This document shows, piece by piece, positions 1,669 to 21,126 of a stretch of 37,919 nucleotides of DNA. Every line of letters begins with the position of its first letter. Position 1 is the first letter of the stretch. The notes beneath the pieces were generated by a model. That model was not told where the DNA came from. It searched no databases and saw only the letters and a list, made by a program, of their open reading frames with translations. The DNA comes from an uncultured Pseudomonadota bacterium. Its GTDB lineage: Bacteria; Myxococcota_A; UBA796; SXON01. The translations under genes were made by a program, and so were the position numbers. The DNA lies in assembly GCA_903844155.1 (NCBI GenBank), contig CAIMSU010000249.1:1-37919 (forward strand), read 5' to 3'.

Positions 1669-1842
1669 GAGGGCCTCGGGGTGTGGTTGCATTACGGTAC
1701 GACGCTGGAGAGAGAAACTGGACCGCCGTCGAAAAACGCACGCTCGGCGGGCGCAGGTCGTCGGGAGCGGCCGCTTCCGGCGTCGGCCCGTCACGCCGGT
1801 CCATGCCGTCTGATACACTCCGCCCCTCTTCCAGGAAGCGCG
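1669..1842. promoter_or_regulatory. Divergent intergenic region upstream of the fusion gene
   Basis: This 174-nt gap separates the minus gene starting at 1668 from the methyltransferase-AddB fusion starting at 1843. A TGATACACT stretch (1811-1819) could be a -10 element for the fusion gene, but no convincing -35 lies 16-18 nt upstream. A clear ribosome site AGGAAG (1833-1838) precedes ATG 1843. The stretch must hold promoters for both directions unless transcription enters from elsewhere. Confidence 0.3.
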
Positions 1843-4800
1843 ATGGCCGACGGCTACGTTCACAATCAGGGGTTGTTCGCCTCCGCTTACTTCGACAGGT
1901 TGCTCGCGGATCTGAGGGGAAAGCGGCGTCGCCCGCCGGCGGATCCGGCTGCTCGCATCGAGACCTTGCGCGCCCTCTGGCGAGGGGTCCGGAAGACCTT
2001 CATGCGCGACTCGCGGGCGTCCGCCCCACAGGTCGGGCTACGATTCGCGGCGCGATCGGACCGGCGGTTTACGGGGCTGCCCGAGTCCTTCGAACCCCTC
2101 GAAGGGCGACATGAGGACGCCGCGCTCTCGGAGATCATCTCACCCGTATTGCAGCGTGTGCTCGGCTACAGGGTCGAGGTTCAACGCTCGCTCCTGATGA
2201 CTGGCGAGGCGGCGCGCGAGGTCGGAGGCAACGCCCAACGTCCCGACGTCATCACCTTCGCAGACGCCGCCAAGTATGAAGCGGTCGTCCTGCACTTCGG
2301 CGAACGGGACCGGCCGGGCCGGGGGGCTGCCAACGGCGTGGACTTCTGCCGTTCAGCGTCGATGATCGTCGACGCCAAGCGGTTCAACAAGGGCGTCGGG
2401 GCAGACGAGTCGGATGGAGCCACGCACACCAAGCGCAACCGCGTCGAGCCCACGGCGCTGGACGACATCAAGCAGGTGGAGCGATACCTCCGCGGCTACG
2501 ACCGGAACTGGGGTGTGCTGACCAACGGGCGAAGCTGGCGTCTCGTGCGAAAGGGCAAGATCCAGGAGCACGTCCGCTTCGATCTCATACTCTGGCTTGA
2601 GGACATGGATCGCCGCGAGGTTCCGACCACCACGGCTGCGGATCTGGCCGTGTTCGACGTGTTTTGGCACCTGTTCGGGCCTCCCGCCGCGGACGGCTTC
2701 CTGGACGACGTGGAGCGAGAAAGCAGTGACAGTACCGCCGTGGTTCGGGACGTCCTGCGTCGGCGGGCGTACGAAGCGGTTGAAGTCATCTCTCGCGGCT
2801 TCTGGTCCTGCCCCGCAAACGCCCAACTGCTGCCCGTCTCGCCTGCAATTCCGACGCAGGCCGAGCTTGATCGGCTCCGCGAGGTCTCCCTCACACTATT
2901 GTACCGGTTCCTGTTCATCCTCAAGGCCGAGGCGCAAAACCTGCTCCCCATGCTCCGTCAGGACGGGACCGCGACGGGGTACGCGCGGGAAGGGTCCACT
3001 CGCTGCCTGTACGCTGAGCTTCACCGACGGTCTTTCGAGGATCGAAGCCGGTATTCGAAGGTCTACCAGCAGCTTCGGCTGCTGTTCACCGGGATCGATC
3101 AAGGCGATCCTGAGTTGGAAATTCCGGCGTACAACGGCGGACTCTTCGACGCAGGCCGGCACCCGGAGCTCGCGAACTGGCGCCTGCTCGATCAGGCGCT
3201 CTTCGAAGTGCTTCACCTCCTGATCTACCTTGGCGGCGGCGAGAATCCCGATCCAGTCCCCTACGCCGACCTCGACGTCCGTGACCTTGGAGACATCTAC
3301 GAGGGCCTGTTGGAACAACGCCTCGTGGGTGTGGCAGGCGATCCGCCGTCCTTGCACCTCGCGAACGAAAAGGGGGAGCGCAAGGCGAGCGGCTCCTACT
3401 TCACGCCGGACGGCCTCGTCGATCATCTCACCCGACGCGCCCTGCTCCCCTTGCTCGACGCCTGTGGTGACGACCCCGCCAAGGTCCTGGCGCTGCGGGT
3501 GCTGGACCCCGCGATGGGTAGCGGCCACTTCCTGGTCAAGGCCGTGGACGTCATGGCCGACTACCTGACGAGCCGTTGTGATCCCGTTGATGCGGATGCA
3601 CCACGAGACAACGGACCCGCCGAGTACGCCTACTGGAAGCGGCGAGTCGTCGAGAACTGCATCTACGGCGTGGACTACAACCCGATGGCTGTCGAGCTCG
3701 CCCGGGTGGCGCTTTGGCTTTACACGGCCGAGCAGGGGAAGCCACTCTCATTCCTGGACCATCACCTCAAGGTCGGCAACAGCCTGGTGGGCGTGACGCT
3801 GGACCGCCTCGCGAAGCCTGCGCTTCACATCAAACTCAACAAGGGCGAGCGAACGTGGGAGGTTGTTGCGCCGGCCGAGCCGCAGGAGGTCGCTGCGACG
3901 CCCGGCGACACTCCGAAGAAAGGAAAAAAGAGGAAGGGTTCGGTGGCTCAGCTTCCGCTGCCGTTTCCCATCGACACGACCCTTTTTCAGGGCATCCTCG
4001 CGAGCATTCGGAGCATCCTTGCGCAACCTAGCGACTCGGCGAGGGACGTGAAGGCGAAGGGCATTGCGTACGCTAAGGCCGTTGAGCAGCGGCTCGCTGC
4101 CCATAGGTTGTTGGCGGATCTCTGGTGCCTGCAGTGGTTCATTCCGGCCGATGACGACGCGGGCAGAGCATGGAACTCTCCCAATGGACTTTATGATGAA
4201 GTCAAGCGCACCTGCGGTCTGCCTTTGGGCGAAAAGCGCGACGCAGCGCTCGCGATGCTTGGGGCGGACCCTTGGGTTGCCAAGGTCAAGGTCGCGCGCT
4301 CAGCGGGCTCCGGCCCCCGCGTAGAGGCCTTCTTTCACTGGCAGTTGGAGTTCCCGGAGGTGGCTTTCGGGAGGGACGGGCAGCCACGCGAGGGGTTCGG
4401 TTTCGACGCCGTCATTGGGAACCCGCCGTGGGACAAAATCAAGCCGGAGCGCCGACAATTCTATGGGCCCTATGGGCAACCTGAGAAGCCCGGCTGGGAT
4501 GTCGCCAACACGCAGGGGGCGTCGCTGGATGCGCTGATCGACCGGCTGCATCAGCATTATCCCGGACTTGAACGGGCGTGGGCGACGTACGAATCCACCA
4601 TCGACGCCACCGCGCGGTTCCTGCGTCACGCCGGGGTGTTCCGCGATCAGATTGTTTTGGTACAGGGCAAGTCGACCGGGGGGGACCCGGACACGTTTCG
4701 CTACTTTGTAGAACGTTCATTTCGAGCGGTCCGCGAGGGTGGGCGTGTCGCATTGGTAGTGCCGGGCGCCCTATGGCAGGCCGAGGGGTGTACCGGGCTT

Positions 4801-7800
4801 CGACAGATGCTCTTTTCCAAGGCAACTGTTGAGGAGACGTTCATCTTCGAGAACTATCGGAGGTGGGCATTCGACATTCACACGAGTACCAAGTTCACGA
4901 CATTCGTCGCGGCAGCTATCGCCCCGGCGGCGAATCACTCCTTCCCTGCGGCTTTCATGCTTAGAGACCTACGCGCCGTGGCGGGTTTGCTTCCTGAACG
5001 GATCGTGCGACTCACGAAGGCGTCGGCGGAGGCTTTGAGCCCCGGGACGCTCGGCTTGCTCGACGTGCAAAGCCAGGGCGAGGAGGCGCTTGTGGCCAAG
5101 ATTCACCGAGAACTCCCCGGCTTGGGCACGGCGGACAGCGGCTGGGGAGCGCAGTACCGCTGCGATGTCCACATGACCGCAGGGGCGTGGCGATTCAAAA
5201 GCCGAGAATGGATGCAGGCTCGTGGTTTTCTTTGCCTGCGCCCGGTCCGACAGCCGGACGGCAGTTGGCTACAGTCCCGAGACTTTGGATCACCGAGCGC
5301 AGAGTACCTCCTGAACATCCCTGACGGTGGGGAGTACTGGCTCGCCGCAGAGGCCGAGTGGTACGAGCAGCGGCAGTATGAACCGGTGTTCTCTGACGAA
5401 GCCCGGTCGTTTCGTGTAGGGTTCATTCACCCCAAAGACGCTGCTGAGAAGCCCCTTCGAGGGGTCCCGTCCAAGGAGCGGCATCTGATCGTGCCGGATG
5501 GCATCTACACGGCGCTCTACGAGGGCCGAATGGTCCACAATTTCGATCACGCGCAAAAGGCTTACCAGTCGGGTCAAGGTCGCAAGGCTGTCTGGAGCGA
5601 GATCCCCGTCGCGGAAAAGCGATTGCAGCCTCGAGTTTTCAGCCTTGGGAAGCTGGACAGAAATGTGCCGTTCGCGGTCGGCTTCTGCGACGTAACTGGC
5701 GCCACGAATGAGCGTTCCCTCCTTGCGGCCTTGTTGCCCAAGACGAGTTTGGGTGGCCACAAGGTGCCGTATCTCACGGTGTCCGACTCCGTTCGCGCCA
5801 TCGCGCTCACCGCAGTGGTCAACTCATTCGTGTGTGACTTCCTGGTGCGCTTGCGCGTCTCCACCTCCATGACCTGGACCTTCATGTCGCGTATCCCGGT
5901 TCCCAGGCCGGACTCGATCCCCGCTGGGGTGAGCGAACGCGTGGCCCTCCTCTCCTGCACCACCCCCGAGCTCGCGGACGTCTGGAACGAGGTCTTCCCG
6001 GCCTCACCCTGGACCTACGACAGCGCTGAGCGTGATCCCTGGACGCGTGGAGTCCTACGGGCCGAGCTGGATGCCATAATCGCGGAGCTCTACGGCCTCT
6101 CCGTCCCCGAGTACGCGCGCATCCTGGCAGGCTTTCCGCTCCTGGACCGTGACCAGCCCGCGCTATCCGGCGATGCGTTCGTCACCCAGGCAGACGAGGC
6201 GCCCGCGGGCGGCGTCGAGGGCGTCACTCACGAAACGATGCCGTTTGGCGTGTACGAGCGCAAGCCCCGCTCCTTCATCACTCGCGACCTCGCGCTGCTC
6301 ACCTTCATGAGGCGCCGGAAGTTTGCGCCACCTCAAGATCTCCCGGCGTTCTTTCGAGACGAGGTTGGGATCGACCCTCGCGGCCCGCTCTCACGCTTCC
6401 GCATCGGCGAGCTCACGGACCTGATCGACCGCGTGAAGGAAGCCCAGCGGAACGGCGCTGTCGCGTACGCGCCCTCGTCCCGAGGCGGGGGGACAGACGC
6501 CCCGGACGGGGATGAGGACTCGGAGGGGGATGACGCCGCGGCCATGCCGACGGCGGCCGGCCCGCATGGAACCCCGCCGGCCCACGAAAGCGCCGCCCCG
6601 ACCGCCGGGGTCCCAGCGGATGCCCCAACTCCTCCGAGCATCGTCTTTGCCGCACCGTTGCCGGTGTACCTCCAGACCGCCCCCGGCCTCACCCTCATCC
6701 TCGGCCCCGACCTCGACGCCGGTGCCCTGCTCGGCTCGACGGCGACCGCCTCGTTCGGCCTCTCCGTCGTCGGCCCCTCGGGCTTTGCGGACCGGCTGGA
6801 GACCGCCCTTGGGCTCTCTGGACCGATCCTCTCCACCGGGGAACGCGCCGCGGAGCTGGTGCCCGTGCTCCTCGCGACTCCGGGGTTTTGGACGGAGTCC
6901 GCGAAGACGGACCCGCTCGGGGTGGCTCGGCAGCTCCTGCACTGGCGGGACACCCTCCGGCTGAGCGGGTGGCGTGGTGAGTCCGTTGCTCCCAGGCTCG
7001 ATGCCGTGGCCGACGTGACCGCCAACGTCTCGCCCGGTCTTGCCGACCGGCTAAACGCGGTGTGCGTTGCGATCAACGAGCGAGACCCCGAGATCGCGAC
7101 CGTGATCCTCGTCGAACCGGCGGAGAACCTTCCCCGAGTTGTGCGGGACGTTCTGGCCGCCCTCGTCGCCCGCGGGACCCTGGTCCGGCCCTTGGATTTG
7201 CACGCAGCGACAGCATCCGGCGACCTGATGACGGCGCGGTCGCAGGGCTTTCGTCCAACCGGGGACGGCACCTTGGAGCTGATCCGACCCGCTGGTCCCC
7301 TCGAAGCTGCGGAGGCTGTCGCCGCCTGGCTCGCCACCGACCCCAACCGCGAGGGAACCGTCATCATCGGTGCGGATGCCGTTCTCGACGCCGCTCTGCA
7401 CCGCCACGGGTTGCCGACCACCGGCGGTTCGAGCCGCGGCGGTGGCGCGCTGTTGCAGCTGCTCCCCCTGGTGCTCGCGCTCGGTTGGGCACCGACGGAC
7501 CCACAGCGCGCGTTGGAGCTGTTGACCCTCCCGCTGTCGCCCATCCGTAAGAACGTCAGCGCTGCGCTGGTTGGCGCGCTTCAAGCTTGGCCCGCGGTGG
7601 GGAGCGAATCTTGGGACGAGGCGCTCGCAGATGCGCTGGCAGCAATCCCTGACGAGGCGGTCCGAGACGTCCAGGCCGACCGCGTCCAGACCTTTCTGTA
7701 CGGAACGGTGTTCGGCGCTGCCTACCCCGCGGCAGAGGCCCGTCGTCGCGTGGACGCCCTCGCGACCTGGATGCGCGGACGCGCCAGCATGGAGGAGAAA

Positions 7801-9282
7801 TCGGCCAAGGAACAAGGCCGGGTACCCGCGGAGTTCGGACCGGCGCTCGGGCAGGCGCAGGTCTTCAAGCGGCTCCTCGACCTTTCCGGGCTCGACCCGC
7901 TCACCGCACCGCAGCTTCGTCGGCTCGTCGATGACGCGACCGCCGCCACCAGTGAGTCAGCGCCCCACGTCGCTCAGGCCGGCTTGCGGGCGCTCGCCGG
8001 GCCAGCCGGTCTGCTCGGACCGGCCGCGCAGGTGGTTTGGTGGTCGTTCCGCTCGGACACGGCGCCGGGCGTGCCCCGCCTCGCGTTTTCACGGCATGAG
8101 CGGCACGCTCTGGCCGCGATCGGCGTCGATCTGCCCACATCCTCGGCGGTCGCGATGGCGACGGCCGCGCGCTGGCGCCGTCCGCTGCTGCAGACGACGG
8201 GCAGGCTTGTTCTGGTGTGTCCCGTCCAGGGCGAGGATGGCGCTCCCGCGCACCCCCACCCTCTCTGGGACGAAATCGTAGCGGGGGTTCCGGCCAGCGA
8301 GGCCGGCCGACTGGTGCGAGCGTCGCCGGCCTCCGCGGTCGTGCCCAGCATTCGCTCCCCGTTGGCATTGCCGCTGCCCCAACACGCGTGGACGCTACCC
8401 GCTGGCTCGGTCAAGGTCCGCAAACTGGAGTCACCTTCGAGCCTCGGATCGCTCGTGGGCTGCTCGCTGCAGTGGGTACTGAACTACCATGGCAAGGTCC
8501 GGGCGGGCAAGACGGCCTCGTTGCCCGCCAAGAACGTGCTGTGGGGCAACGTCGCTCACGATATCGTCGCGCGGGTACTGGACACAGCCCAGGACGCGCT
8601 CCCAGCCCCGAGCGATGCCGAGGCGCAAGCCCTCTCGCTCTTCGACAGCCACGGCCCCCGAATGGCCACGCAGTTGTTCCGCGCCGGCAACGAGCACGAG
8701 CGCGAACGCGTGCGGACGGTGATCGGGCGCGCGGCGGGGGACGTGGTGGGTGCGCTCGCCAGCGCAGGCCTGACGGTGAAGAGCGTTGAGAAGGCGTACT
8801 CCAAGGCTGCGTTCGGCACAACGCTTGAGGGCACGCCGGACCTCGTCGCGAAGGCCGGAGCAGCAGCGGTGATCGACCTCAAGTGGGGCGGCGGCAAGTA
8901 CCGAGCCGAGGAGCTTCAACGGGGGACGTCGACCCAGCTCGCGGCCTACTCGCACCTCGTTCGTGAGGACGGACCCTACCCGCCGGTCGCCTATTTCATC
9001 CTCACCGAGCAGCGCCTCTACACCACCGACCCGACGAGGTTCAAGGGCGGAGTCGTGGTCGCCGGAGCCGGGCCCGAGGCGACGTGGCTCCTGCTTCAGA
9101 AAGCCTGGGACGCTCGCTGGGCCGAAGTGCAGGAGGGCGATGTTCAAGCCTCCGGGCACTCCACCCTCGCCGGGGAGCTACCTCCCGAGAAGTCCGAGGT
9201 GATCGACGGACAGCTTGTCATCGCGCCCGGGTGCGGCTTCTGTGACTACGGAACTCTCTGCGGAAAGACGAGGTGCATGTGA
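1843..9282 (+). CDS. Type IIG/PglX-like methyltransferase-nuclease fused to AddB-like Fe-S nuclease, 2479 aa
   Basis: ATG 1843 has AGGAAG just upstream; earlier in-frame codons read as non-coding. Residues ~1-300 look like the N-terminal nuclease of type IIG enzymes: RPD at 133-135, VDAK with D177/K179, then QVERYLRGYDR and VLTNGRSWRL. Residues ~520-1000 form an N6-adenine methyltransferase with motif I DPAMGSGHF (555-563) and motif IV NPPW (860-863); a probable target-recognition region follows. Residues ~1546-1600 are an acidic, Pro/Ala-rich linker. Residues ~1601-2479 resemble AddB/RecB-family exonucleases: a helicase-like part without Walker motif (DPLGVARQLLHWRDTL is characteristic), then a PD-(D/E)XK core (GTPD2333, IDLK with D2345/K2347). 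C2207 plus C2464, C2467 and C2473 match the Fe-S cysteine pattern of AddB. It probably forms a complex with the next gene's AddA-like product. Expected roles are site-specific DNA methylation plus cleavage and resection. The domain combination is unusual; the function is inferred. Confidence 0.85.
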   Translation: MADGYVHNQGLFASAYFDRLLADLRGKRRRPPADPAARIETLRALWRGVRKTFMRDSRASAPQVGLRFAARSDRRFTGLPESFEPLEGRHEDAALSEIISPVLQRVLGYRVEVQRSLLMTGEAAREVGGNAQRPDVITFADAAKYEAVVLHFGERDRPGRGAANGVDFCRSASMIVDAKRFNKGVGADESDGATHTKRNRVEPTALDDIKQVERYLRGYDRNWGVLTNGRSWRLVRKGKIQEHVRFDLILWLEDMDRREVPTTTAADLAVFDVFWHLFGPPAADGFLDDVERESSDSTAVVRDVLRRRAYEAVEVISRGFWSCPANAQLLPVSPAIPTQAELDRLREVSLTLLYRFLFILKAEAQNLLPMLRQDGTATGYAREGSTRCLYAELHRRSFEDRSRYSKVYQQLRLLFTGIDQGDPELEIPAYNGGLFDAGRHPELANWRLLDQALFEVLHLLIYLGGGENPDPVPYADLDVRDLGDIYEGLLEQRLVGVAGDPPSLHLANEKGERKASGSYFTPDGLVDHLTRRALLPLLDACGDDPAKVLALRVLDPAMGSGHFLVKAVDVMADYLTSRCDPVDADAPRDNGPAEYAYWKRRVVENCIYGVDYNPMAVELARVALWLYTAEQGKPLSFLDHHLKVGNSLVGVTLDRLAKPALHIKLNKGERTWEVVAPAEPQEVAATPGDTPKKGKKRKGSVAQLPLPFPIDTTLFQGILASIRSILAQPSDSARDVKAKGIAYAKAVEQRLAAHRLLADLWCLQWFIPADDDAGRAWNSPNGLYDEVKRTCGLPLGEKRDAALAMLGADPWVAKVKVARSAGSGPRVEAFFHWQLEFPEVAFGRDGQPREGFGFDAVIGNPPWDKIKPERRQFYGPYGQPEKPGWDVANTQGASLDALIDRLHQHYPGLERAWATYESTIDATARFLRHAGVFRDQIVLVQGKSTGGDPDTFRYFVERSFRAVREGGRVALVVPGALWQAEGCTGLRQMLFSKATVEETFIFENYRRWAFDIHTSTKFTTFVAAAIAPAANHSFPAAFMLRDLRAVAGLLPERIVRLTKASAEALSPGTLGLLDVQSQGEEALVAKIHRELPGLGTADSGWGAQYRCDVHMTAGAWRFKSREWMQARGFLCLRPVRQPDGSWLQSRDFGSPSAEYLLNIPDGGEYWLAAEAEWYEQRQYEPVFSDEARSFRVGFIHPKDAAEKPLRGVPSKERHLIVPDGIYTALYEGRMVHNFDHAQKAYQSGQGRKAVWSEIPVAEKRLQPRVFSLGKLDRNVPFAVGFCDVTGATNERSLLAALLPKTSLGGHKVPYLTVSDSVRAIALTAVVNSFVCDFLVRLRVSTSMTWTFMSRIPVPRPDSIPAGVSERVALLSCTTPELADVWNEVFPASPWTYDSAERDPWTRGVLRAELDAIIAELYGLSVPEYARILAGFPLLDRDQPALSGDAFVTQADEAPAGGVEGVTHETMPFGVYERKPRSFITRDLALLTFMRRRKFAPPQDLPAFFRDEVGIDPRGPLSRFRIGELTDLIDRVKEAQRNGAVAYAPSSRGGGTDAPDGDEDSEGDDAAAMPTAAGPHGTPPAHESAAPTAGVPADAPTPPSIVFAAPLPVYLQTAPGLTLILGPDLDAGALLGSTATASFGLSVVGPSGFADRLETALGLSGPILSTGERAAELVPVLLATPGFWTESAKTDPLGVARQLLHWRDTLRLSGWRGESVAPRLDAVADVTANVSPGLADRLNAVCVAINERDPEIATVILVEPAENLPRVVRDVLAALVARGTLVRPLDLHAATASGDLMTARSQGFRPTGDGTLELIRPAGPLEAAEAVAAWLATDPNREGTVIIGADAVLDAALHRHGLPTTGGSSRGGGALLQLLPLVLALGWAPTDPQRALELLTLPLSPIRKNVSAALVGALQAWPAVGSESWDEALADALAAIPDEAVRDVQADRVQTFLYGTVFGAAYPAAEARRRVDALATWMRGRASMEEKSAKEQGRVPAEFGPALGQAQVFKRLLDLSGLDPLTAPQLRRLVDDATAATSESAPHVAQAGLRALAGPAGLLGPAAQVVWWSFRSDTAPGVPRLAFSRHERHALAAIGVDLPTSSAVAMATAARWRRPLLQTTGRLVLVCPVQGEDGAPAHPHPLWDEIVAGVPASEAGRLVRASPASAVVPSIRSPLALPLPQHAWTLPAGSVKVRKLESPSSLGSLVGCSLQWVLNYHGKVRAGKTASLPAKNVLWGNVAHDIVARVLDTAQDALPAPSDAEAQALSLFDSHGPRMATQLFRAGNEHERERVRTVIGRAAGDVVGALASAGLTVKSVEKAYSKAAFGTTLEGTPDLVAKAGAAAVIDLKWGGGKYRAEELQRGTSTQLAAYSHLVREDGPYPPVAYFILTEQRLYTTDPTRFKGGVVVAGAGPEATWLLLQKAWDARWAEVQEGDVQASGHSTLAGELPPEKSEVIDGQLVIAPGCGFCDYGTLCGKTRCM

Positions 9283-12200
9283 GCCACGCCCCCCATACCG
9301 AGGGCAGCGCCCTCCGGATCACCATCATCTCGGCGAGCGCAGGCAGCGGGAAGACCCACCGCCTGACGGACCTCCTCAACGAGGCGATCACGAACGGCGC
9401 GCGCCCCGAGTGTGTGCTCGCCACAACGTTCACGAACAAGGCTGCGGCGGAGTTGAAGGAGCGCACGCGCAGGAAGCTGCTCCAGGAGCGGCGGTTCTCT
9501 GAAGCGCAGCGCCTGGGCGCTGCCCGAATCGGCACGGTGAACGCTGTGTGCGGTCGGCTCGTCGCAGAATTCGCCTTCGAGCTGGGACTGTCGCCCGAAC
9601 TGCGGGTGCTCGACGCTGCTGTCTCCGACGCTGCCTTTCGGGAGGCCCTCTCATCGGTGTTGGAGGGGCACGCCACGACGACATTTCACGATCTACAATC
9701 GCGGATGGTCGCCTTCGACGGGCTCAAAGCCGTGCGCGATGTCGTTGACACAGCGCGCTCCAACGGGCTCGGAGCGACGGAATTGGCGGCGTGCGCCGAT
9801 CGCAGCGTAGCGGAGATCCTTGGCCTTTTCGGCAAGGCCACCGAGACCGCCGAGGTGATGGACGAGCGCCTGAAGTCCACGTTGGCCGAGTTCATCCGCC
9901 AGGTGGCTCAGTCCGGCGACAGCCATAAGAACACTGGGGTCGCCGTCGCAAAGGCGAAGGACGTCCTGTCCACGCTTCAGCGAGGACGGGAGGTGTCCTG
10001 GTCCGCCTGGGTCGCGCTGACGAGACTCTCGGTCGCCAAGGAGTCAGCGTCTTTCGTGGCGCCTGTGATCGCCGTGGCTGGTGGGTCGCACCGCCACCCG
10101 GCGTTGCTCGCGGACGTGGAGTTGGCCATCCGCACTGTGTTTTCGGTCGCCAGTCAGGCGATGGGCCTCTACCAGCGGCACAAGGCCGACTGGGGCGTGA
10201 TCGACTTCGCCGACCAGGAGCTCTACGCGCTCGAGTTGCTCGACCGCGTCGATGTTCAAGAGCGCCTACGCGACGAGCTCGACCTCGTTCTGGTCGATGA
10301 ATTCCAGGACACCAACCCGGTCCAGTTGGCTATTTTCCTTCAACTCGCCAAGCTCGCCAAACAATCGTACTGGGTCGGTGACCAGAAGCAGGCGATCTAC
10401 GGGTTTCGTGGTGCCGATCCGACGCTCATGGACGCAGCGATCCGGGCAGTTCTCGGTGCCGCCGAGCCAGAGACCTTGCCCAGGTCCTATCGCAGCCGCC
10501 CGGAGCTCGTGCGGCTGGCCTCCGACGTGTTCAGCCGCGCCTTCCCGTCCCAAGGCATTCCCGCCGAGCGGTGTGTGTTGGAGCCTGCAGCGCTGACCGA
10601 GGTGCCGGACCTTGGCGCGGTCGTTGAGCGCTGGAACCTGGGGAGCACCAACGAGGGGAACGACGCGAAGTGCGTGGCTTCCGGGGTACAGCAGCTCCTC
10701 GCCGATCCCGCTACGCGGGTGCGTGACGGAGATCACGGCTCCCGAGCGGCTCGGCCTGGGGACATTGCGGTCCTGTGTCGCAAGCACGTCGAGTGTGGCG
10801 CCGTCGCCAATGAGCTGGAAGCGCTCGGTATCCGGGCTGCGCTTCCGCGAGCTGGGCTCCTGCAAACCGCCGAGGGCGTCGCCGCGTGCGCCGCCCTCCG
10901 GTTGTTCGTCGATGCTCGCGATGCGCTCGCCAAGACCGAGCTGTCGCGCTTGATCGAGGGCGATGGTGATCTCAACGCGTGGCTCTCGCGAGTTGTCGCA
11001 GAGCCCTACGCCCAGGGTCTCAACGACCTCGCGGTGGTCGCGTCCGTGGTGGCCGCGCGGGAGGCAGCACCGGCAGCCGGCGCGCTTCAGGGCTACGACC
11101 TTGCTGTTCAGGCAGGGGGTATCGCCGAACTGTGCCGCCGCTGGGGCGATGCAGACGCTCGCCTCGCGAACCTCGACCGCCTCCGCGCTCACGTGCTCGC
11201 CTACATCTCCGGCGCAGAGGCGAGCGGCGCCGCTGCGACTCCTGCGGGGCTCGTCGCGTGGCTGTACAAGCTCGCCGACGACGAGGCAGACTCGCAGGCA
11301 GTGCGGCAGGGGTCCGACGCGGTCGTGGTCAGCACCTGGCACGCGTCCAAGGGTCTCGAGTGGCCCATCGTCGTTCTCAGCAGCCTGAACGCGGAGTTCA
11401 AGGCCACCGAGCTCGGGGTTCGTACCGCCAGCGACACCCCAAACGACGCCTTCGACTTCGCGAACCCTTTGAAGGGGCGGTGGGTCCGGTTCTGGGCTCA
11501 ACCCTACGCGGCGAACAACACTGACACCGAGTTCCACAGGAACCTCGCCGTTCATCCGCTCACGATCGCGGCCGAAGCCCGCGAAGCCCGCCAAGAGCTA
11601 CGTCTTCTGTACGTCGGGTGGACGCGTGCTCGGGACCGGGTCGTGTTCGCGGCGCGATCGGGGAAGCTCATGAACGGCTGTCTGAAGTTGCTACGGGAGG
11701 GCGGAAACGCCCTGGTTTGCGAGCCCGCGCCCGGCATCACGTGGGCGGGCCGTAAACTCGATGCCCTGGTTCGGACTCCGTCGCCCGGTCTGCCTACGGC
11801 TCGGCCGGTCGTACCTGGTCTCGGGTTTGATCCGGCCGGTCCTCGCGAGTACCCGAAGGCGTTCGTCAAGCCCTCGGACCTGGACGCGAAGGGCGTGGCC
11901 GCGGCGCACGAGCAGCTGGGCGTGCACCTCAAGCTCACGGCCGATGTGCCTGACGCCGATCGGGGAGACGCGATCCACGGGTTCCTGGCCGCAGACCGTC
12001 CGGGGCTGGATCCTGCTGCTCGTGTCGGGCTCGCGGCCGGGCTGCTGACGCGATGGGGGGTGGACGTCGCGCTTGCCCCGGCGGACCTGATCGAAGCGTC
12101 AAACCGGCTGGTGGCGTGGGTGGACCGGCGTTGGCCGGGTGCAAAGTGGTGCAGGGAGTGGGCGGTGGCTCACCCGCGGGCGGACGGGAGCCAGGTGCGG

Positions 12201-12455
12201 GGGTTCGCGGACCTCGTGCTGGACACGGCCGATGGGTTCGTGGTCATCGACCACAAGAGCCGGCCGGGTGGGCTGCCGAACCTGCTGGAGGAGGCTGCAG
12301 GGCATGCCGGGCAGCTTGGGGCTTACGCAGGGGCGATCGGGGCGGCGACGGGGCGGCCGGTGATCGGGGGGTTCATTTACTTTGCGGTGGCGGGGTGGGT
12401 AGTGGAGGTGGGTGCGGCAGCGAGTGGGACGAGAGCGCCTGACCGACCTCTCTGA
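9279..12455 (+). CDS. AddA/UvrD-like superfamily 1 helicase with C-terminal nuclease, 1058 aa
   Basis: GTG 9279 is chosen because GAGG lies 6 nt upstream; GTG 9273 is possible. The start overlaps the upstream stop by 4 nt, implying translational coupling. All SF1A helicase motifs are visible: Walker A ASAGSGKT (K25), motif Ia TFTNKAAAEL, DEFQD (340-344), GDQKQAIYGFRG (367-378), LPRSYRSRPE, HASKGLEW (688-695) and YVGWTRARD (778-786). The C-terminal ~150 residues carry a RecB/AddA-type nuclease: GDAIHGFL, RGFAD with D978, VIDHK with D991/K993, then QLGAYAGAI. This is the AddA domain order and near its usual length (about 1200). With the AddB-like half of the preceding fusion it should form a two-nuclease, single-motor end-resection complex. 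Its 3' end overlaps the convergent mcrC by 83 bp. Confidence 0.88.
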   Translation: MSHAPHTEGSALRITIISASAGSGKTHRLTDLLNEAITNGARPECVLATTFTNKAAAELKERTRRKLLQERRFSEAQRLGAARIGTVNAVCGRLVAEFAFELGLSPELRVLDAAVSDAAFREALSSVLEGHATTTFHDLQSRMVAFDGLKAVRDVVDTARSNGLGATELAACADRSVAEILGLFGKATETAEVMDERLKSTLAEFIRQVAQSGDSHKNTGVAVAKAKDVLSTLQRGREVSWSAWVALTRLSVAKESASFVAPVIAVAGGSHRHPALLADVELAIRTVFSVASQAMGLYQRHKADWGVIDFADQELYALELLDRVDVQERLRDELDLVLVDEFQDTNPVQLAIFLQLAKLAKQSYWVGDQKQAIYGFRGADPTLMDAAIRAVLGAAEPETLPRSYRSRPELVRLASDVFSRAFPSQGIPAERCVLEPAALTEVPDLGAVVERWNLGSTNEGNDAKCVASGVQQLLADPATRVRDGDHGSRAARPGDIAVLCRKHVECGAVANELEALGIRAALPRAGLLQTAEGVAACAALRLFVDARDALAKTELSRLIEGDGDLNAWLSRVVAEPYAQGLNDLAVVASVVAAREAAPAAGALQGYDLAVQAGGIAELCRRWGDADARLANLDRLRAHVLAYISGAEASGAAATPAGLVAWLYKLADDEADSQAVRQGSDAVVVSTWHASKGLEWPIVVLSSLNAEFKATELGVRTASDTPNDAFDFANPLKGRWVRFWAQPYAANNTDTEFHRNLAVHPLTIAAEAREARQELRLLYVGWTRARDRVVFAARSGKLMNGCLKLLREGGNALVCEPAPGITWAGRKLDALVRTPSPGLPTARPVVPGLGFDPAGPREYPKAFVKPSDLDAKGVAAAHEQLGVHLKLTADVPDADRGDAIHGFLAADRPGLDPAARVGLAAGLLTRWGVDVALAPADLIEASNRLVAWVDRRWPGAKWCREWAVAHPRADGSQVRGFADLVLDTADGFVVIDHKSRPGGLPNLLEEAAGHAGQLGAYAGAIGAATGRPVIGGFIYFAVAGWVVEVGAAASGTRAPDRPL

Positions 12456-14127
12456 GATAGGCTTGCCAAGCTGCCGGAGACAGGGTGTCGTTGTGCGAAG
12501 GGAACGGCAGCCCGACACGGAGCAGGTGCGCCGGCCCCTGCTCCGTGTGGACGGGGCCCCTTGAGGCTGGCTTCAGATGCACCGGATCCGGCGCGCGGGC
12601 CCCGCCCGCTAGCGTCGGGAGCGGGAAGACGAGCGCCACGGTGTCGGGGGCCGGCGTCTCGGTCTCGAGAGACCACGGGCTCCGCTCGCAGAGCATTGAG
12701 TAGGCGAAGGTTTGGTACTGGTCGCTCGCGTCGACGCAGCGGCCCTTCCCGGGCATGGCCTTGTACTTTGCGTCAACAACAACGGTGCGGGGTTGTTTCT
12801 CCGCCGGCCGGGGCACCGAGACTATGAAGTCCGGGCGCTTCGACGCGCCAACGCCAATCCAGACGTCCAGCGGCTTGTCCTTCGACTGCTCGTCCCGCCA
12901 GGCCCAGTGGTCCTCCAGTGCCTGGAATACGACGTCCTCCCAAAACTTGCTCGTATCGAACCAGAACTGCGCGGCCTCCTCACCGTCCCCGGCAGTGCCG
13001 GCCTTTGGGGGCTCGACGCGTAGGATCTGCCGCGCCAGCTCCACCGGCCGCTCCCATTCCTTTTGCGCGCGTGTCAGGCGGATGCGGCCCGCTTGGTTCG
13101 CCGCGACGGGAAGCGGCAATGCGGAGATCGATTGGAGCATCCGTCGCACTTGTGTCGCTTTTTTCGCCAGATCAGCGGCGACATTCCAGTTCGAGAGCCC
13201 GAACATCGCCGCGATCGCTCCGCTGGCAACGTGCTCCAGCGCGGTCACCAGCACCCGAAAGAGCGGTGTGGCCTCCGTGAACTCGTCGCGCGCGCACTCG
13301 ATCCACGGGGTGCCCATCGCGGCCTGCTGGATCATCCCCCGCATCGTAGGGCGCCCACGCACGACGCAGGATGTCTCGACGACCGGGACATAACCACGTC
13401 GAACTTTCCGCAGCCGGGCCTCCATCTGCTCAACGAACAACCACTGAGAGAGCAGGGCGAGTGGATCATGAAGGGCTCGCCGGTCACCATGCTCGCCGAT
13501 GGCTCCGCCGGAACCCGCCTCGGCGTCCGCCTCGTGGGTCCAAAGGTTTGTCGAGCGGCGACATCGGGAAGCGAGGTGGATGAGTGAAATCAAGCCCCTG
13601 CCGACCTCCGCCGCGCTGTTGACCTCCGGACGCGCCAGGCTCCCACCGGGCACTGTGTCGGACGCAGGAAGCTCAAAGTCGGCGGGTGCGTTGTCACCCT
13701 TTCCGGGCGAAAAATTCACCAATTCATTGAGGACGGCGTCCTCGTCGGAATCGTCCGAGTCCGAATCGTCCGTGTCCGGATCGTCGGCATACTTGGGCAG
13801 CCGGCTCGGTCTGGGCCCCCCCCTTGCCCTTGCCTCTCGCGCCTTTTTGGCCGCCACCCGCACGGACTCGTTGATAGAGCCTTGGACGGTCGTTGTGAGG
13901 AAATCGGCAAACGTCTTGGAAACCTTCAGGGCAACCCGATCCACCTCGTACAGGACTAGCACATGACGCCCGCCCTCTCCGAGGTCAACGACTGGCCTGG
14001 CGGGTGCCGCTGACGACTTCCAAGCTTTAGGGTGCACAAGCACCGTAATGCTGCAGCCCCCGAGCGCATAGTGAAACAGGCCACTACGATGACCGCGAGG
14101 GCTCGGCGTGACGAGGACGTAGGGCAT
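12373..14127 (-). CDS. mcrC: McrC-like restriction nuclease subunit, 584 aa
   Basis: McrC is the nuclease partner of the McrB GTPase in type IV restriction of modified DNA. ATG 14127 shares a base with the mcrB stop (TGATG), so translation is coupled; the frame extends 25 codons upstream but that part lies inside mcrB. The family pattern is present: RGRPTMRGMIQQ, then ECARDEFTEATPLFRVLV (the conserved order preceding the McrC helical part), then FWFDTSKFWEDVVFQAL. The C-terminal PD-(D/E)XK core has RPDFIV (D433), VVVDAKYK (D452, K454) and DQYQTFAYSM. A run of Asp/Ser near residues 110-135 (DDPDTDDSDSDDSDED) is an acidic insertion not typical of McrC. At 584 aa it is longer than E. coli McrC (about 350), as in many environmental homologues. 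It may be regulated together with mcrB. Confidence 0.85.
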   Translation of the reverse strand: MPYVLVTPSPRGHRSGLFHYALGGCSITVLVHPKAWKSSAAPARPVVDLGEGGRHVLVLYEVDRVALKVSKTFADFLTTTVQGSINESVRVAAKKAREARARGGPRPSRLPKYADDPDTDDSDSDDSDEDAVLNELVNFSPGKGDNAPADFELPASDTVPGGSLARPEVNSAAEVGRGLISLIHLASRCRRSTNLWTHEADAEAGSGGAIGEHGDRRALHDPLALLSQWLFVEQMEARLRKVRRGYVPVVETSCVVRGRPTMRGMIQQAAMGTPWIECARDEFTEATPLFRVLVTALEHVASGAIAAMFGLSNWNVAADLAKKATQVRRMLQSISALPLPVAANQAGRIRLTRAQKEWERPVELARQILRVEPPKAGTAGDGEEAAQFWFDTSKFWEDVVFQALEDHWAWRDEQSKDKPLDVWIGVGASKRPDFIVSVPRPAEKQPRTVVVDAKYKAMPGKGRCVDASDQYQTFAYSMLCERSPWSLETETPAPDTVALVFPLPTLAGGARAPDPVHLKPASRGPVHTEQGPAHLLRVGLPFPSHNDTLSPAAWQAYLREVGQALSSHSLPHPPPLPTPPPQSK

Positions 14128-16316
14128 CAGACTGCGAGGACGATTATTGGGACCCGCAACAGGCCGGACCCGTTCAGGCGCCAGGTAAGGGCCCACTTCC
14201 ACTCGGTCAACGCACTGTCGCCCAGGTCCAACTCCGGAATTGAGTGGCCACTTCGCGTGTCGGAACCGTCTTTCCCTGTGTCTTTGAAGACGCGGTCGAG
14301 GAGGTCGTTGGACAGCAAGGAGTCCACCAGTTGTGGAAAGATGTGCTTGTTCCAGTGGTGGGCAACAATCTTGGGTTCGTCACCGGCCTTGCATATCTCG
14401 CCATCGCCGAGGTCGCGAACAAGATCAAAGAGGTAGCTATGCCCGAGCATGGCGTCATCGCCGTGCACCTGGAGCCTCCGGTTCATGGCGACCCACGCAT
14501 CCACGGACTGCGCGACCGGGTGGGTGGGCGTGCAGCCGAGCGCTTCGAGGACCCTGGCCGCCGGTGTACCGTCGGTCCTCGTTGGATCGAACCCGATCGG
14601 CCAGACTCGCTCGAACGCGAAGCGCCGTCGCAGCGCCGCATCCATCGGTGCTATCGACCGATCCGTGGTGTTCATCGTGCCGATCACATAGACATTGGCG
14701 GGAACAAAGAAGAGGCGGCCGCTGTAGGGCAGGGTGACGACCTGAGCTTCGCCGATGTCCCAGTATCCTTGGCCGTCCTGGGTCGGATCTGATGGATCCG
14801 ACGCGGTCGATCGCCACCGAGCCCGCTTTGAGCCCTCGATGGTGGTAAGCAGGTCACCCATGACCTTTGGGATGTTGCATCTGTTGAGCTCGTCGAGGAG
14901 CACTGCGAACTCGCAGCGTGGGTAATGTGCCGCTTCAATGCAAACAGAGACGAAGAACCCGTCGTGCAACGAGAATGCTTGCGCGAGGTCGGGCAGCTTG
15001 TCACTGTTGCGGAAGAAGAAGTGACGCCGGTCCGGGCCTGCGTTCGGTCCATCGGTCACCGCGGGGCGCACCGCTGGATCGGGAACGAAGTGCGCGGTTC
15101 TCGGGCTCCACTCCGGCGAATCGAAGCGCGGTATGGGCTGTTCAAACGGACCAGGCCGCAGCCCCTCCACAAAGTCCTCGTACGCGGTCGCGGGATGCAT
15201 GGTCATTGCGAAGCGGCCGGTTCCCTCCCCGCGGATCAGACCGCCGGGGCTGGCGGCCCCGTCCAGGCATTTGAGTCGATAGGTTTTGCCGGTTCCCGGA
15301 ACGCCTTCAAGCACCATGCAGTACGGTTCAACTCTCCAGGCCAGGGCCTGACGAACTGAGAGCCTGCCGCTGATCTTCGCGAGGATCAAGTTGGCTCGAT
15401 CCAAACTGATGCCCTCCGCGGTAATTCGGCAAGTACTTTTGGCCTCCTTCCCGGCTCGTCGCATTGCATGCTCCAGCTCGGTGGCGGCCGCGACCGGATT
15501 GGTTGCGAGCCCGGTCTGGACCCAAGGGATCCGGACCTCGGGCTTGTTCTCTGCCGCGTAGGCCAACTCCAGTTTGAAGCTGTGCAGGGCGGCCAGCAGC
15601 CTCGCAATGCCGGTGATCCGCGACTCGTTGAATCCAACGGAGGCAATGAGGAACGTCGGCTTCTCGCTGACCAGCTCCACCAGCACCTTGCACTGGTCAA
15701 CGACCGGCGTCCAAGGTCGGGAAGTTGCGCGAGCGGAGGAGTCTGCGCGGGGTCCCGGGACTGGCCGCGACCGAGCACCGGCCGCCGCCGCTGCTCCGGG
15801 CTCATTCGCAGCGTCCAGCAGCGCTTGACGGCCGTGGAGCGCAACGGGGAGGCTTTCGGCAAAGTCGAGGATCGTCCGGCGCGTACCCGCACCCCCTGAA
15901 GGACTCTTCTCACCGACCTGCAGGATGGTGAAGTCGTTGCCAGGCAATCTGTCGCCCGGCGCAGGCGTCCATGGGGCGGAAACAGCTTCCCACTTGACCT
16001 TCTTGAGGTTCGGATGAGATTCCATTTTTTTTGGTCCCTTGCTCTTGGCGACCCCTTGCTCCACCGCTTTCCTCAGCTCATCGTCGACCTCGCCCTCGAC
16101 TACGCCAATCCCGACGAACATCGCGCTCGCTTTCACTCCCTTCACTCCGCCCGTGGACCGCACGCAGATCAGGATATCGTTGGCTTCAAGCGCCTGGAAG
16201 GCCGCCTGCGCCGAGGGGGTCCAATCGCCTCCCCCCACCCCCGCGACGCCGAGACCCTCGTAAAGCGGCCAGTTCCTATTGGATTCCCCCGCCTTGTACA
16301 GAAAAACACGTGCCAT
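14127..16316 (-). CDS. mcrB: McrB-like GTPase/AAA+ restriction subunit with N-terminal reader-like domain, 729 aa
   Basis: ATG 16316 has AGGAG about 8 nt upstream. The AAA+ core shows McrB hallmarks: Walker A GVPGTGKT (K344), Walker B LLDELNR (473-479) continuing as CNIPKVMGDLL, and the sensor stretch MNTTDRS (548-554) followed by ALRRRF, equivalent to the McrB MNTADRS motif. McrB recognises modified cytosine-containing DNA through a variable N-terminal domain and uses GTP to drive McrC. Here residues ~1-115 contain ILICVRSTGG and MFVGIGVVEGE, like an EVE/PUA-type modified-base reader; this domain call is an inference. The following ~100 residues are Pro/Ala/Arg-rich linker. The gene opens the mcrB-mcrC pair. 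The 159-nt gap upstream (16317-16475) contains no other gene and must carry its promoter unless read from the phosphatase operon. Confidence 0.87.
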   Translation of the reverse strand: MARVFLYKAGESNRNWPLYEGLGVAGVGGGDWTPSAQAAFQALEANDILICVRSTGGVKGVKASAMFVGIGVVEGEVDDELRKAVEQGVAKSKGPKKMESHPNLKKVKWEAVSAPWTPAPGDRLPGNDFTILQVGEKSPSGGAGTRRTILDFAESLPVALHGRQALLDAANEPGAAAAAGARSRPVPGPRADSSARATSRPWTPVVDQCKVLVELVSEKPTFLIASVGFNESRITGIARLLAALHSFKLELAYAAENKPEVRIPWVQTGLATNPVAAATELEHAMRRAGKEAKSTCRITAEGISLDRANLILAKISGRLSVRQALAWRVEPYCMVLEGVPGTGKTYRLKCLDGAASPGGLIRGEGTGRFAMTMHPATAYEDFVEGLRPGPFEQPIPRFDSPEWSPRTAHFVPDPAVRPAVTDGPNAGPDRRHFFFRNSDKLPDLAQAFSLHDGFFVSVCIEAAHYPRCEFAVLLDELNRCNIPKVMGDLLTTIEGSKRARWRSTASDPSDPTQDGQGYWDIGEAQVVTLPYSGRLFFVPANVYVIGTMNTTDRSIAPMDAALRRRFAFERVWPIGFDPTRTDGTPAARVLEALGCTPTHPVAQSVDAWVAMNRRLQVHGDDAMLGHSYLFDLVRDLGDGEICKAGDEPKIVAHHWNKHIFPQLVDSLLSNDLLDRVFKDTGKDGSDTRSGHSIPELDLGDSALTEWKWALTWRLNGSGLLRVPIIVLAV

Positions 16317-16475
16317 CGACGACTCCTCACACGCGCGGCTATTCGTTTCCTCGCCGGGGGGCCAGCGACGAGCTGGCGTTTGCCTTGTCGCACCTCCTTG
16401 GCAGGGTCCCGCTTCGGGTGCGCCGCCTGCCGCGAGCTGCCGGCGAGGGTTGTTCACGAAGTATGAGACTAGAAC

Positions 16476-17873: not shown

Positions 17874-18477
17874 GCTTCCGCCGCACGGCCTCGATTGCCG
17901 CCCGATGAAACGCCTCATTCTCAGCGGGAGATCGCGAGGCGTCCAAGTCCCGGTAGATCCAGCGCACGCGCGTGGATCGCGGGTGGTGAGTGTCCGTCGT
18001 CACGGCGTAGCCATGGCTCTCAAGCCACGCGGTGACGCCGCACCAAACGTTGTCGGTGCAGAAACGAGGGTGCTCGTCCTCCCAGTCCAGCTCGACCTCG
18101 ATGTCGATCGTTCCGAGACAGTCGGGGTGGGAGCCGAGCGAAAGGTAGCCGTTGTCGTCGTCGGGATCGTCGACGGTGACGCAGGCCGCTGCGTTGCCGA
18201 AGTCGGGTTTGAGTGCGCCCTCTCCCCACGGCAGCGCCCGGCATGCGACGCGGATCGCGCTCTTGAGAGTGCGGGGCCGTCGCAGCGGGAGGCCCAGAGC
18301 GGTCAAGCCGGTCGGGGTCACGACCGCCCCGCTGATGTGCCCGCGCCGGTCCAGGGCGCGCCACGTGTTTGGCGAGACGTGGTCGACGCGCTCGGACTGG
18401 GCGAGCAGCTCCCACAGTGCGTACCGCTGGAGCGACGAGAGCGTCGGCATCGCCGGGGCCTTGGATTGGCTACGCAT
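17866..18477 (-). CDS. Hypothetical protein with winged-helix-like N-terminus, 203 aa
   Basis: ATG 18477 overlaps the stop of the AAA gene by 8 bp; a TTG at 18492 is an alternative. Residues ~15-60 (LQRYALWELLAQSERVDHVS, then TWRALDRRGHI and VTPTGLTALG) resemble a winged-helix fold used for DNA or protein binding. The rest is acidic (VTVDDPDDDNGYLSLG, IEVELDWEDEHP) and contains a late RSTRVRWIYRDLDA segment. I do not recognise the family. The tight overlap with the ATPase suggests a partner or substrate adaptor. Confidence 0.6.
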   Translation of the reverse strand: MRSQSKAPAMPTLSSLQRYALWELLAQSERVDHVSPNTWRALDRRGHISGAVVTPTGLTALGLPLRRPRTLKSAIRVACRALPWGEGALKPDFGNAAACVTVDDPDDDNGYLSLGSHPDCLGTIDIEVELDWEDEHPRFCTDNVWCGVTAWLESHGYAVTTDTHHPRSTRVRWIYRDLDASRSPAENEAFHRAAIEAVRRKHV

Positions 18478-20650
18478 CGCCCACCCCACCAAAATCGGGA
18501 ACGGGCTCGGAGCCGTCGGTCTCCTCCTCGAATGCCGCAGCCTCCAACGCCCGGAGATCGAGGTTCATCCCGCTCGCCGCGGCCCGCGACGCTGCCCGCA
18601 CCACGGCATTCCGGATCAGCCCGCCCGTCAACCGGTACCGATGAGCCAACCCCCGCAGGTCCAACTCCCGGCCTCCCGTCGCAGTGCTCGGAGCGAGCGA
18701 TCGCCAGATCGCCAGTCGCCCCGCAGCGTCGGGAACCGGGAACTCCACCTTCCACCCGATCCGCCGACCGAGCGCCTTGTCCAACACGTCGGGCCGGTTC
18801 GTACACAGGATCACCACGCCTTCATGTCGGTCCAACAGGTCGAGCAACGTGTTGACGAGCGAGTCGTCGTGTCGGCTCGCGCGGGCCTGTCCGCGCTGCA
18901 TGAGCAGGCTGTCGATCTCGTCGAGCAGGAGGACGGCCTCGTCCTTCGCGGCTTCAGCGAACAGCCGGGCAAGGGTGCGCTCGGCCTCGCCGACCCACTT
19001 GGACAACACCGAGGGCAACGTGACCCGGCACAGCGGGCGACCCAACTCTCCGGCGATGGCCTCGGCGCAGAACGTCTTGCCGGTTCCGGGCTCGCCGTGG
19101 AACAGCGCGACGATGCCTCGCCCGCCCGTCTGTCGCGCAGCGATGCCCCAGCGCTCGAACACCGTGCGTCGGGTGCTGGCCGCCGCGACGATCTCCTCCA
19201 CGAGCCGCTTTTCGCGCGTCGGGAGGCTGACGTCCGCGAGGGTGGAGAGCGGCGCCTGGTGCGACGGGCCGTCCTCGGACGATGCCGGTCGACGCGCCTG
19301 GTCCCGGGCGGCCCGGTCGAGTTGGGACTGGGTCAGCACGGGGTCCACACCGCGGCTCGCTCCATCCGCGACAGACGCAGCGATCGCGTTGAGCACGGCG
19401 TTTTTGATGTACCCGCCGGCGATGTCGTGGCGACGCGCGAGGGCCTGGATGTCGATGCCGGGAGCCAACACAGCGCGCGGTGGGATGAGCATGCGCCAGA
19501 TGCGCTCGCGGGCGATGCCGTCGGGCCGCGGGAAGTCGACGCGGACCAACACACGGCGGTCGAGCGCCTGATCGAGCTTGTCAGCGAGGTTGGTGGCAAG
19601 GACGGCGACGCCCTCGAAGCGCTCCAGCTCGGTGAGGAGCAGCGTCATCAGCTCGTTCCCGTTGCGACGGGAGGCGAACAAGGCCTCGCACTCATCAAAG
19701 AATAGCAGGGCGTTGTGGAGACGCGCCTCGCGGAACAGGCCGGGGAGGAACCGGGCGGCGTCGGAATGCCCGACGAAGGTGGGGATGTCCACGTTCAACA
19801 CCCGCTTTCCAAGGCGGTCGGCGATGGCGTGCGCGGTGGACGTCTTGCCGGTGCCCGGCGGACCCGTGAACAGGAAAAGCGAGCCGCGGCCGTACCTTAC
19901 GACCTCGTTGACGCCCCAGGCCCCCCAGGTCGTGGCCAGCGCGGTCTGGTGGTCGACGACGGCGAGAATGCGCGCGAGGTCCGATGGCGGGAGGACGACG
20001 CTCTCGAACGAGGCGTTCGGGGCCTCCAGCACGGAGAAGCTCTCGAACTCCTGCGCGAGCCCGTCGCTGCCGAGGATGAGCTCGAGCCCGCGCCCCGTGA
20101 TGCTCACCGTCGCGTCGAGCAGCTGCTCAGGGCCTTCGTAGCGGGAGTTCATGCTCAGCTGGGCGAGGTCCTGGGCGAACAGCGCGCCGCCCGGCCGGAA
20201 CAGCGCTCGTTTGGCAACACGCTCCGGCAGGGACAGCTCGGCAAAGTTGAACAGCAACTCCACGGAGCAGGAGTTCTCGCTCTCCAGCTCGTCCAGCATC
20301 TGCCCGAAGCGCTTCTGCAGCGCGATCCCGGCGGAGAGCAGGAGCGCCCAACGCTCGATGTCGGACAGCCCGAAGATGGCCTCCACGGCGTCGAGGCCGA
20401 CGGGCTCGTAGTTCTCGGCGGTGATCGGCGCCATCGCGTCGAAGGCGACGCGCAGGGCGTGCTCGCGCTTCTTGAGCACCGCGACGGGGGGCGACTTCTC
20501 GGGCTCCTCGCGGTTGCGGTAGCGGCGGGCGCCCTGGCCAGCGTCGCGCAGCTCGCGACCGAGCCGACGGATGCGGGCTTCGGCCCAGGCGAGTTCGGCC
20601 TGGAGCAGGGTGAGAGGAGTGACGGGGGTGATGGGACGGGAGGCGGTCAT
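18470..20650 (-). CDS. Tandem AAA+ ATPase, 726 aa
   Basis: ATG 20650 has AAGGA about 7 nt upstream. Residues ~1-230 are helical and unrecognised. Two AAA+ modules follow. Module 1 has Walker A GPPGTGKT (K269) and Walker B LLFFDECEALF. Module 2 has Walker A GEPGTGKT (K525) and Walker B VLLLDEIDSLL. Each has a sensor-type asparagine (LATNLADKLD, LCTNRPDVLD) and a downstream AAA lid. This is Cdc48/FtsH-lineage architecture, suggesting a ring-shaped remodelling or unfolding machine. Related tandem ATPases occur in contractile-injection and other accessory loci, but no such neighbours are seen here. It leads an operon with four downstream genes and shares its leader sequence with the two small paralogues upstream. 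Confidence 0.8.
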   Translation of the reverse strand: MTASRPITPVTPLTLLQAELAWAEARIRRLGRELRDAGQGARRYRNREEPEKSPPVAVLKKREHALRVAFDAMAPITAENYEPVGLDAVEAIFGLSDIERWALLLSAGIALQKRFGQMLDELESENSCSVELLFNFAELSLPERVAKRALFRPGGALFAQDLAQLSMNSRYEGPEQLLDATVSITGRGLELILGSDGLAQEFESFSVLEAPNASFESVVLPPSDLARILAVVDHQTALATTWGAWGVNEVVRYGRGSLFLFTGPPGTGKTSTAHAIADRLGKRVLNVDIPTFVGHSDAARFLPGLFREARLHNALLFFDECEALFASRRNGNELMTLLLTELERFEGVAVLATNLADKLDQALDRRVLVRVDFPRPDGIARERIWRMLIPPRAVLAPGIDIQALARRHDIAGGYIKNAVLNAIAASVADGASRGVDPVLTQSQLDRAARDQARRPASSEDGPSHQAPLSTLADVSLPTREKRLVEEIVAAASTRRTVFERWGIAARQTGGRGIVALFHGEPGTGKTFCAEAIAGELGRPLCRVTLPSVLSKWVGEAERTLARLFAEAAKDEAVLLLDEIDSLLMQRGQARASRHDDSLVNTLLDLLDRHEGVVILCTNRPDVLDKALGRRIGWKVEFPVPDAAGRLAIWRSLAPSTATGGRELDLRGLAHRYRLTGGLIRNAVVRAASRAAASGMNLDLRALEAAAFEEETDGSEPVPDFGGVGDA

Positions 20651-20723
20651 GGAGATCCTTGGGGGTGATGGCGTTACGTTGAGAAACGATCTGGAGAAAC
20701 CGAAAATCAGAGGAAAATTCTGG
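20651..20723 (-). promoter_or_regulatory. Shared leader, copy 1 (upstream of the AAA ATPase)
   Basis: On the minus strand this leader contains CCAGAAT, then GGTTTC (20701-20696), a 17-nt spacer and CGTAAC (20678-20673), then AAGGA before the ATG. The same order and spacing occur upstream of the two paralogues at 21065 and 21423. The pair resembles an alternative-sigma or ECF-type promoter with a short untranslated leader; the sigma factor is unknown. Confidence 0.5.
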
Positions 20724-20755
20724 TGGGGCGACGAAAATAGGAGGCGGACGGCGTG

Positions 20756-21064: not shown

Positions 21065-21126
21065 GGGGGGCCTGGGGGTGAGAGGGTTACGGTCAAAACG
21101 AATCTGGGAAACCGAGAGTGAGGAGA
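21065..21126 (-). promoter_or_regulatory. Shared leader, copy 2 (upstream of paralogue A)
   Basis: The minus strand shows GGTTTC (21113-21108), a 16-nt spacer and CGTAAC (21091-21086), then CACCCCCAGG before ATG 21064. It aligns along its length with the leaders at 20651 and 21423. Confidence 0.5.

Follow-up and report, generated by a model that had tools for sequence, protein, structure and literature searches.

The window, i.e., the whole 37,919-nucleotide stretch of DNA analyzed here, carries on its forward strand a fusion gene (1843–9282) encoding a type IIG-like restriction-methyltransferase, a linker, and an AddB in a single chain of 2479 aa, followed by a gene for AddA, an SF1 helicase with a C-terminal nuclease (9273 or 9279 to 12455, forward strand). 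The frame is open without a stop from 1357, and the choice of the ATG at 1843 as start, with the stop at 9282, is backed by leader homology (see below). An earlier, sequence-only reading of this DNA had proposed the single 2479-aa frame, the identities of its domains, their fusion, and the AddA partner, and all of these held up against Pfam profiles, motifs, and predicted folds, down to the residues singled out at the time: D135 in an RPD motif, D177 and K179 in IVDAK, DPAMGSGHF at residue 555, and NPPW at residue 860. The 4-nt overlap it gave for the two genes is correct with the GTG at 9279 (GTGA) as the start of AddA, while the start of the mechanically called open reading frame, a GTG at 9273, yields a 10-nt overlap. 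Catalytic motifs read as intact in every domain of the fusion protein and of AddA, and the three nuclease centers claimed previously are all predicted from these motifs. Absent from that reading were the start of the AddB part near residue 1607, preceded by a Pro/Ala-rich linker of ~45 aa (residues ~1561–1606; 6523–6660, forward strand) with no homology to either half, and a convergent McrC-McrB pair just downstream of addA (12373–16457, reverse strand). In this pair, the McrC-like nuclease subunit (12373–14202, reverse strand; Pfam McrBC, 4e-20) overlaps addA and is kept in the same-genus locus described below, and the McrB-like motor (14127–16457, reverse strand; AAA_5, with a Walker A GVPGTGKT and NTTD) may have its true start further in. 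Separately, the region 18470–37839 of the window resembles an accessory island, with a double-AAA ATPase with winged helix, an AbiEi-like regulator, a Schlafen AlbA_2 protein, a phage-type integrase, and a DEAD helicase.

The first half of the fusion protein matched Eco57I (1.7e-17) and N6_Mtase (2e-7) in Pfam, and its methyltransferase matched DrmMI (best, 256 bits) and REase_MTase_IIG in PADLOC. Structure matches and motif conservation delineate an N-terminal PD-(D/E)XK nuclease domain (residues ~37–291, including the three residues D135, D177, and K179; 1951–2715, forward strand), which is followed, according to Pfam, PADLOC, and orthologues, by a helical domain, an N6-adenine methyltransferase, and a C-terminal part that is presumed to serve target recognition and closes with an acidic tail near residue 1560 (2719–6522, forward strand). 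The N-terminal model matched the HsdR nuclease domain (3h1t, Z 8.1), the type IIG enzyme BpuSI (3s1s, Z 7.7, rmsd 3.6 Å, 146 residues), and DrdV (Z 7.6), with its helical part matching PacII M (Z 8.6); the fold values of the nuclease and helical domains are moderate (nuclease Z ~8, range 7.6–8.1), and Foldseek alone returned no significant match for this model. Two whole-length orthologues of the first half were found in the phylum (L050 and L051, 60% and 50% identical), both stand-alone genes whose ends are acidic tails (GDEDE-stop and EDEDS-stop) located where the linker begins in the window, and no AddB of the mobile family described below was found in either genome at the threshold used. 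Both orthologues retain the DxK residues D177 and K179, and one of them the PD aspartate D135, which is an N in L051. The C-terminal part is conserved among orthologues, and no target recognition domain model matched it in Pfam.

This chain shares with type IIG enzymes of the BpuSI, DrdV, MmeI, and Eco57I types an N-terminal PD-(D/E)XK nuclease (RPD...VDAK, along with the BpuSI model match), a helical domain, and a gamma-type N6-adenine methyltransferase (motif I before NPPY/W), but is longer (~1560 aa), continues into an AddB and, if the model proposed below is right, would work with an ATP-driven partner. We take residues 1 to ~1560 to be a complete type IIG-like enzyme with a presumed target recognition part. 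DrmMI of DISARM, although the best PADLOC match of the methyltransferase, differs in that the nuclease motif is missing from most of the more distant DrmMI-like relatives aligned. Membership in DISARM or BREX was rejected, as the main genes of the window include none of the partner genes (drmA and drmB; pglZ and brxC), and no YprA-type gene was found there either. ARMADA likewise pairs a PglX-like methyltransferase with helicases, one of them of the UvrD family (PMC12458937).

The remainder of the fusion protein (6661–9282, forward strand) comprises an inactive SF1 helicase-like body and a C-terminal Fe-S PD-(D/E)XK nuclease. The latter matched Pfam PDDEXK_1 (3e-18, residues 2197–2473) and carries the nuclease motifs GTPDLV (2330) and IDLK (2344) as well as the Fe-S cysteines VGCSL (2205) and CX2CX5C (2464); nuclease motif and all four cysteines are kept in 10 of 10 aligned AddB relatives, one of which shows a Q/W difference in the Q-L-x-x-Y motif. 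A profile search against PDB sequences gave one marginal match. The top match of an AlphaFold model of this part (pLDDT 79, pTM 0.56) was the AddB of AddAB (3u44_B; Foldseek E 5e-18, Z 18.8 over 777 residues), ahead of AdnA, UvrD, and RecC; since the global rmsd is large, we make no claim as to domain arrangement. The structural match to AddB or RecB that the sequence-only reading had called for was thus found, with the AddB of the AddAB complex as the nearest solved structure. At the sequence level, the AddB part is 77–78% identical to a stand-alone 874-aa AddB from a same-genus genome (locus L007), and the fusion protein from residue ~1607 on is a complete AddB.

Its partner AddA matched Pfam UvrD-helicase (2e-43), UvrD_C (5e-12), and PDDEXK_1 (1e-5), and retains a Walker A motif, DEFQD, and the nuclease motif GFADLV...DHK; helicase and nuclease motifs are conserved throughout the intact copies of the family. 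An SF1 helicase with a nuclease (AddA) combined with a helicase-like body and an Fe-S nuclease with CX2CX5C (AddB) is the composition of AddAB, RecBCD, and AdnAB enzymes. However, the window AddA scores far under the equivalog cut-offs for AddA (TIGR02785, TIGR02784; 161 bits vs 708 and 861) and belongs to its own clade: of the 43 AddA sequences placed in a tree, the 23 module copies are split from the 20 housekeeping-type sequences by a branch with full support. The housekeeping AddAB of the same genome is encoded elsewhere (C233), and a duplication of this host AddAB was rejected because its AddA is 26% identical to that of the window and falls in the other clade. The pair further differs from housekeeping AddAB by a shorter AddB (~870 vs ~1150 aa), by its mobility, and by the methyltransferase-nuclease at the AddB N-terminus. 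As judged from these sequence comparisons, the window AddB-AddA is distinct from housekeeping AddAB and represents a separate, patchily distributed two-gene family, a point that the sequence-only reading had missed.

Across plasmids, AddB and AddA matches of this family occurred in the same 26 records, mostly from Rhizobiales, 17 of which are predicted to be conjugative. Within the phylum, AddB of the mobile family was detected in 13 of 379 genomes, some of these matches being short or at contig ends. Most module copies have no adjoining methyltransferase, and PADLOC 2.0.0 holds no label for the AddB-AddA module. Among individual copies, both module genes have broken reading frames in Bradyrhizobium septentrionale (L054, 11941–17847), and an intact, near-identical copy is found in B. 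barranii (L052), while in Sinorhizobium fredii GR64 (NZ_CP137017.1, 139968–147460) the AddB and AddA matches lie ~2.8 kb apart, as if separated by an insertion. An AddB-AddA pair with 30% and 34% identity is also encoded on an unverified phage scaffold from human faeces (MT835507.1, 23889–29617; L118). Two scans of viral contigs led nowhere.

The genes found around these modules are frequently associated with defense. Two Sinorhizobium plasmids (L055 and L062) carry a divergent type IIG-like N6-methyltransferase with a WYL regulator, AddB-AddA, McrB-McrC, and an unknown gene, which, in terms of gene content, is a second arrangement with the ingredients of the window. Type I-G cas genes adjoin the module in three genomes: in one, the pair is followed by cas7 (GSU0053), cas3, cas4-cas1, cas2, and a 34-repeat array (L019, G108:C85, 1–20000), in another cas4-cas1 and cas2 come directly after addA (L082, G348:C2, 8129–16763), and in the third cas3 and cas7 lie upstream of addB (L084, G206:C307, 1–8587). 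A BREX-type pglZ-brxD-helicase set lies near the module in L080, and other plasmid copies have CBASS, multiubiquitin/ThiF, SIR2, or AbiE genes nearby. These neighborhoods suggest a defense role for the module, with the proviso that plasmid accessory regions are generally rich in such genes, and one possible reading of the AddB-AddA pairs beside cas4-cas1-cas2 is that they act as a dedicated source of spacer precursors in type I-G loci. There is a precedent in UvrD-Cas4-type helicase-nucleases, which occur in restriction-modification loci and have been proposed as defense components (PMC5704561). These also place a helicase and a Cas4/AddB-type nuclease beside methyltransferase and restriction genes, with WYL regulators, but are single proteins next to type III or Dcm systems, as opposed to the two-subunit, covalently joined AddB/AddA of the window (PMC5704561).

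The origin of the fusion can be examined in the same-genus genome G133, in which the corresponding locus (L007) is unfused and consists of AddB, AddA, and then convergent McrC and McrB. Identity to the window over aligned columns is 78–79% for AddB/AddA, 64% for McrC, and 48% for McrB, and both AddB and AddA evolve under purifying selection between the two genomes (dN/dS 0.16 and 0.14, respectively). Directly upstream of the unfused addB, L007 carries a MoxR-type AAA ATPase and a VWA (DUF2201) gene (7494–9913). The fusion gene has its leader, ribosome site, ATG, and first codons (MADG; 1809–1854, forward strand) in common with this stand-alone addB: leader and first four codons (TCTGATACACTCCGC...GGAAGCGCGATGGCCGACGGC) are identical at 39 of 46 positions to L007 9940–9985 at the addB start, with a local score of 64 for the pair; 300 shuffles reached 33 at most. 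Within the 8.1-Mb genome, GATACACTCCGC has two occurrences and the full leader pattern one, and no addB-type leader is present in the stand-alone methyltransferase orthologue. A sigma-70 consensus scan of the shared leader revealed no promoter, i.e., “promoter-like” here denotes conservation only.

Because the fusion gene begins like the L007 addB, from the leader through the start codon to codon 4, its methyltransferase open reading frame can be placed inside the 5′ part of addB, after codon 4 and ahead of the body of the gene. Insertion of the methyltransferase into addB is the simpler direction, given that each half is a stand-alone gene in all other copies found; loss of the methyltransferase in G133 may instead account for the two layouts. 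On this comparison, the fusion is a real evolutionary event and not a single assembly joint; a joint at the linker was rejected as the main reading, as the layout would need two in-frame joins. Similarly, a sequencing artefact at the linker, which the sequence-only reading had raised, is unlikely given that the fused gene carries the leader and first codons of addB itself. It also appears very improbable that the GGGGG run near 6525 is one base off and masks a TGA (with six G it would read EGG-stop), in which case there would be no covalent fusion but an operon of restriction-methyltransferase, addB (from an ATG at 6544), and addA. A stop codon does lie one frame over at this run of five G, the acidic tail of the homologues terminates at the same point, and the assembly consists of 375 contigs and comes without reads; however, this reading requires one specific indel, the next ~45 codons remain open in the addB frame, and no recognizable addB leader precedes 6544, the leader being at 1809 instead.

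All other complete AddB copies in phylum genomes are unfused frames of 790–1050 aa, and no second fusion was found among the 13 matching genomes of the 379, all 63 genomes of the order, and the plasmid copies read. A conserved multi-domain family was rejected, the fusion having been found once. Halves always separate elsewhere had been considered an argument against a joint machine, and this is largely what we observe, each half being its own gene elsewhere; the gene in the window is therefore a singular joining of two modules that each work independently, rather than a conserved multi-domain machine. Coupling is needed by neither half, given methyltransferase orthologues without AddAB and AddAB copies without methyltransferase, and the fusion, seen once, could be a recent event or could fail to work as a unit.

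Within these bounds, we propose a “cut and chew” mechanism in which a site-specific restriction enzyme is tethered to a dedicated end-resection motor, a proposal that we regard as about equally apt to prove right or wrong. Specifically, the methyltransferase head would recognize an asymmetric site and, where this is methylated as in the host, idle or maintain the mark, so that the host is spared by N6-methylation. At an unmethylated site, the nuclease of the head would cut nearby, and the tethered AddB with AddA would load at the fresh end and degrade the DNA processively, in the ATP-dependent manner of AddAB, turning a cut that could otherwise be religated into the destruction of the invading DNA. 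Modified phage DNA, the reverse situation, would fall to the convergent McrBC. This mechanism, for which we infer methylation, cutting, loading, processivity, and phage defense, is favored by the domain calls and folds, the use of the addB leader and start, the kept catalytic residues, and the purifying selection, as well as by the shared plasmid records, the separate AddA clade, the defense-gene neighbors, and the UvrD-Cas4 precedent. Points against it are the changed PD aspartate in L051, the moderate nuclease fold match, the target recognition domain being presumed, and the many copies without methyltransferase.

Alternatively, the head may only sense and hold an unmodified site while AddA-AddB moves the DNA, with cutting at a distance, much as in type I or type ISP enzymes except that the motor would be an SF1 pair. 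Type ISP enzymes (LlaGI, LlaBIII) are single-chain proteins that also join nuclease, motor, methyltransferase, and target recognition (PMC3874165), a parallel to the assembly seen here, and HsdR is among the top matches of the nuclease domain. We nevertheless consider this restriction at a distance a rather poor candidate: the type ISP motor is an SF2 helicase located between nuclease and methyltransferase, Pfam detected no SF2 helicase domain in the fusion chain, and the motor here is a C-terminal SF1 AddA-AddB heterodimer. In addition, AddAB enzymes start from DNA ends and not from internal sites. Somewhat less improbable, though still unlikely, is a chance fusion of two independent defense modules, each acting alone and the fusion only guaranteeing co-expression, with the AddAB pair as an accessory resection enzyme, e.g., one resisting phage inhibitors of host RecBCD/AddAB. 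The occurrence of each half alone elsewhere, a long flexible linker that sets no geometry, and the separate AddAB kept in the genome all agree with such a chance event, but the insertion is in frame, the addB body has been kept under purifying selection, and a restriction cut naturally yields an AddAB substrate.

The sequence-only reading recognized no named system of this composition, and neither did the libraries searched here; the literature available for search yielded no description of a restriction enzyme linked to AddAB. The parts are of known kinds, and we call new the joining of a restriction enzyme to AddAB, seen once. We tentatively suggest, with somewhat less than even confidence, that the locus represents a new restriction class, in which cutting and AddAB-type degradation form one covalent machine, along with an unnamed mobile AddB-AddA module recruited by restriction enzymes, McrBC, and type I-G CRISPR adaptation as a dedicated end-resection engine. 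This mobile family is unlabeled in the defense and protein libraries searched. Restriction enzymes are usually thought to leave the complete degradation of cut phage DNA to the RecBCD or AddAB of the host, against which phages carry inhibitors. If our proposal is true, a restriction enzyme with its own tethered, distantly related AddAB would allow the hand-over from cutting to degradation to be tested directly and would escape these inhibitors.
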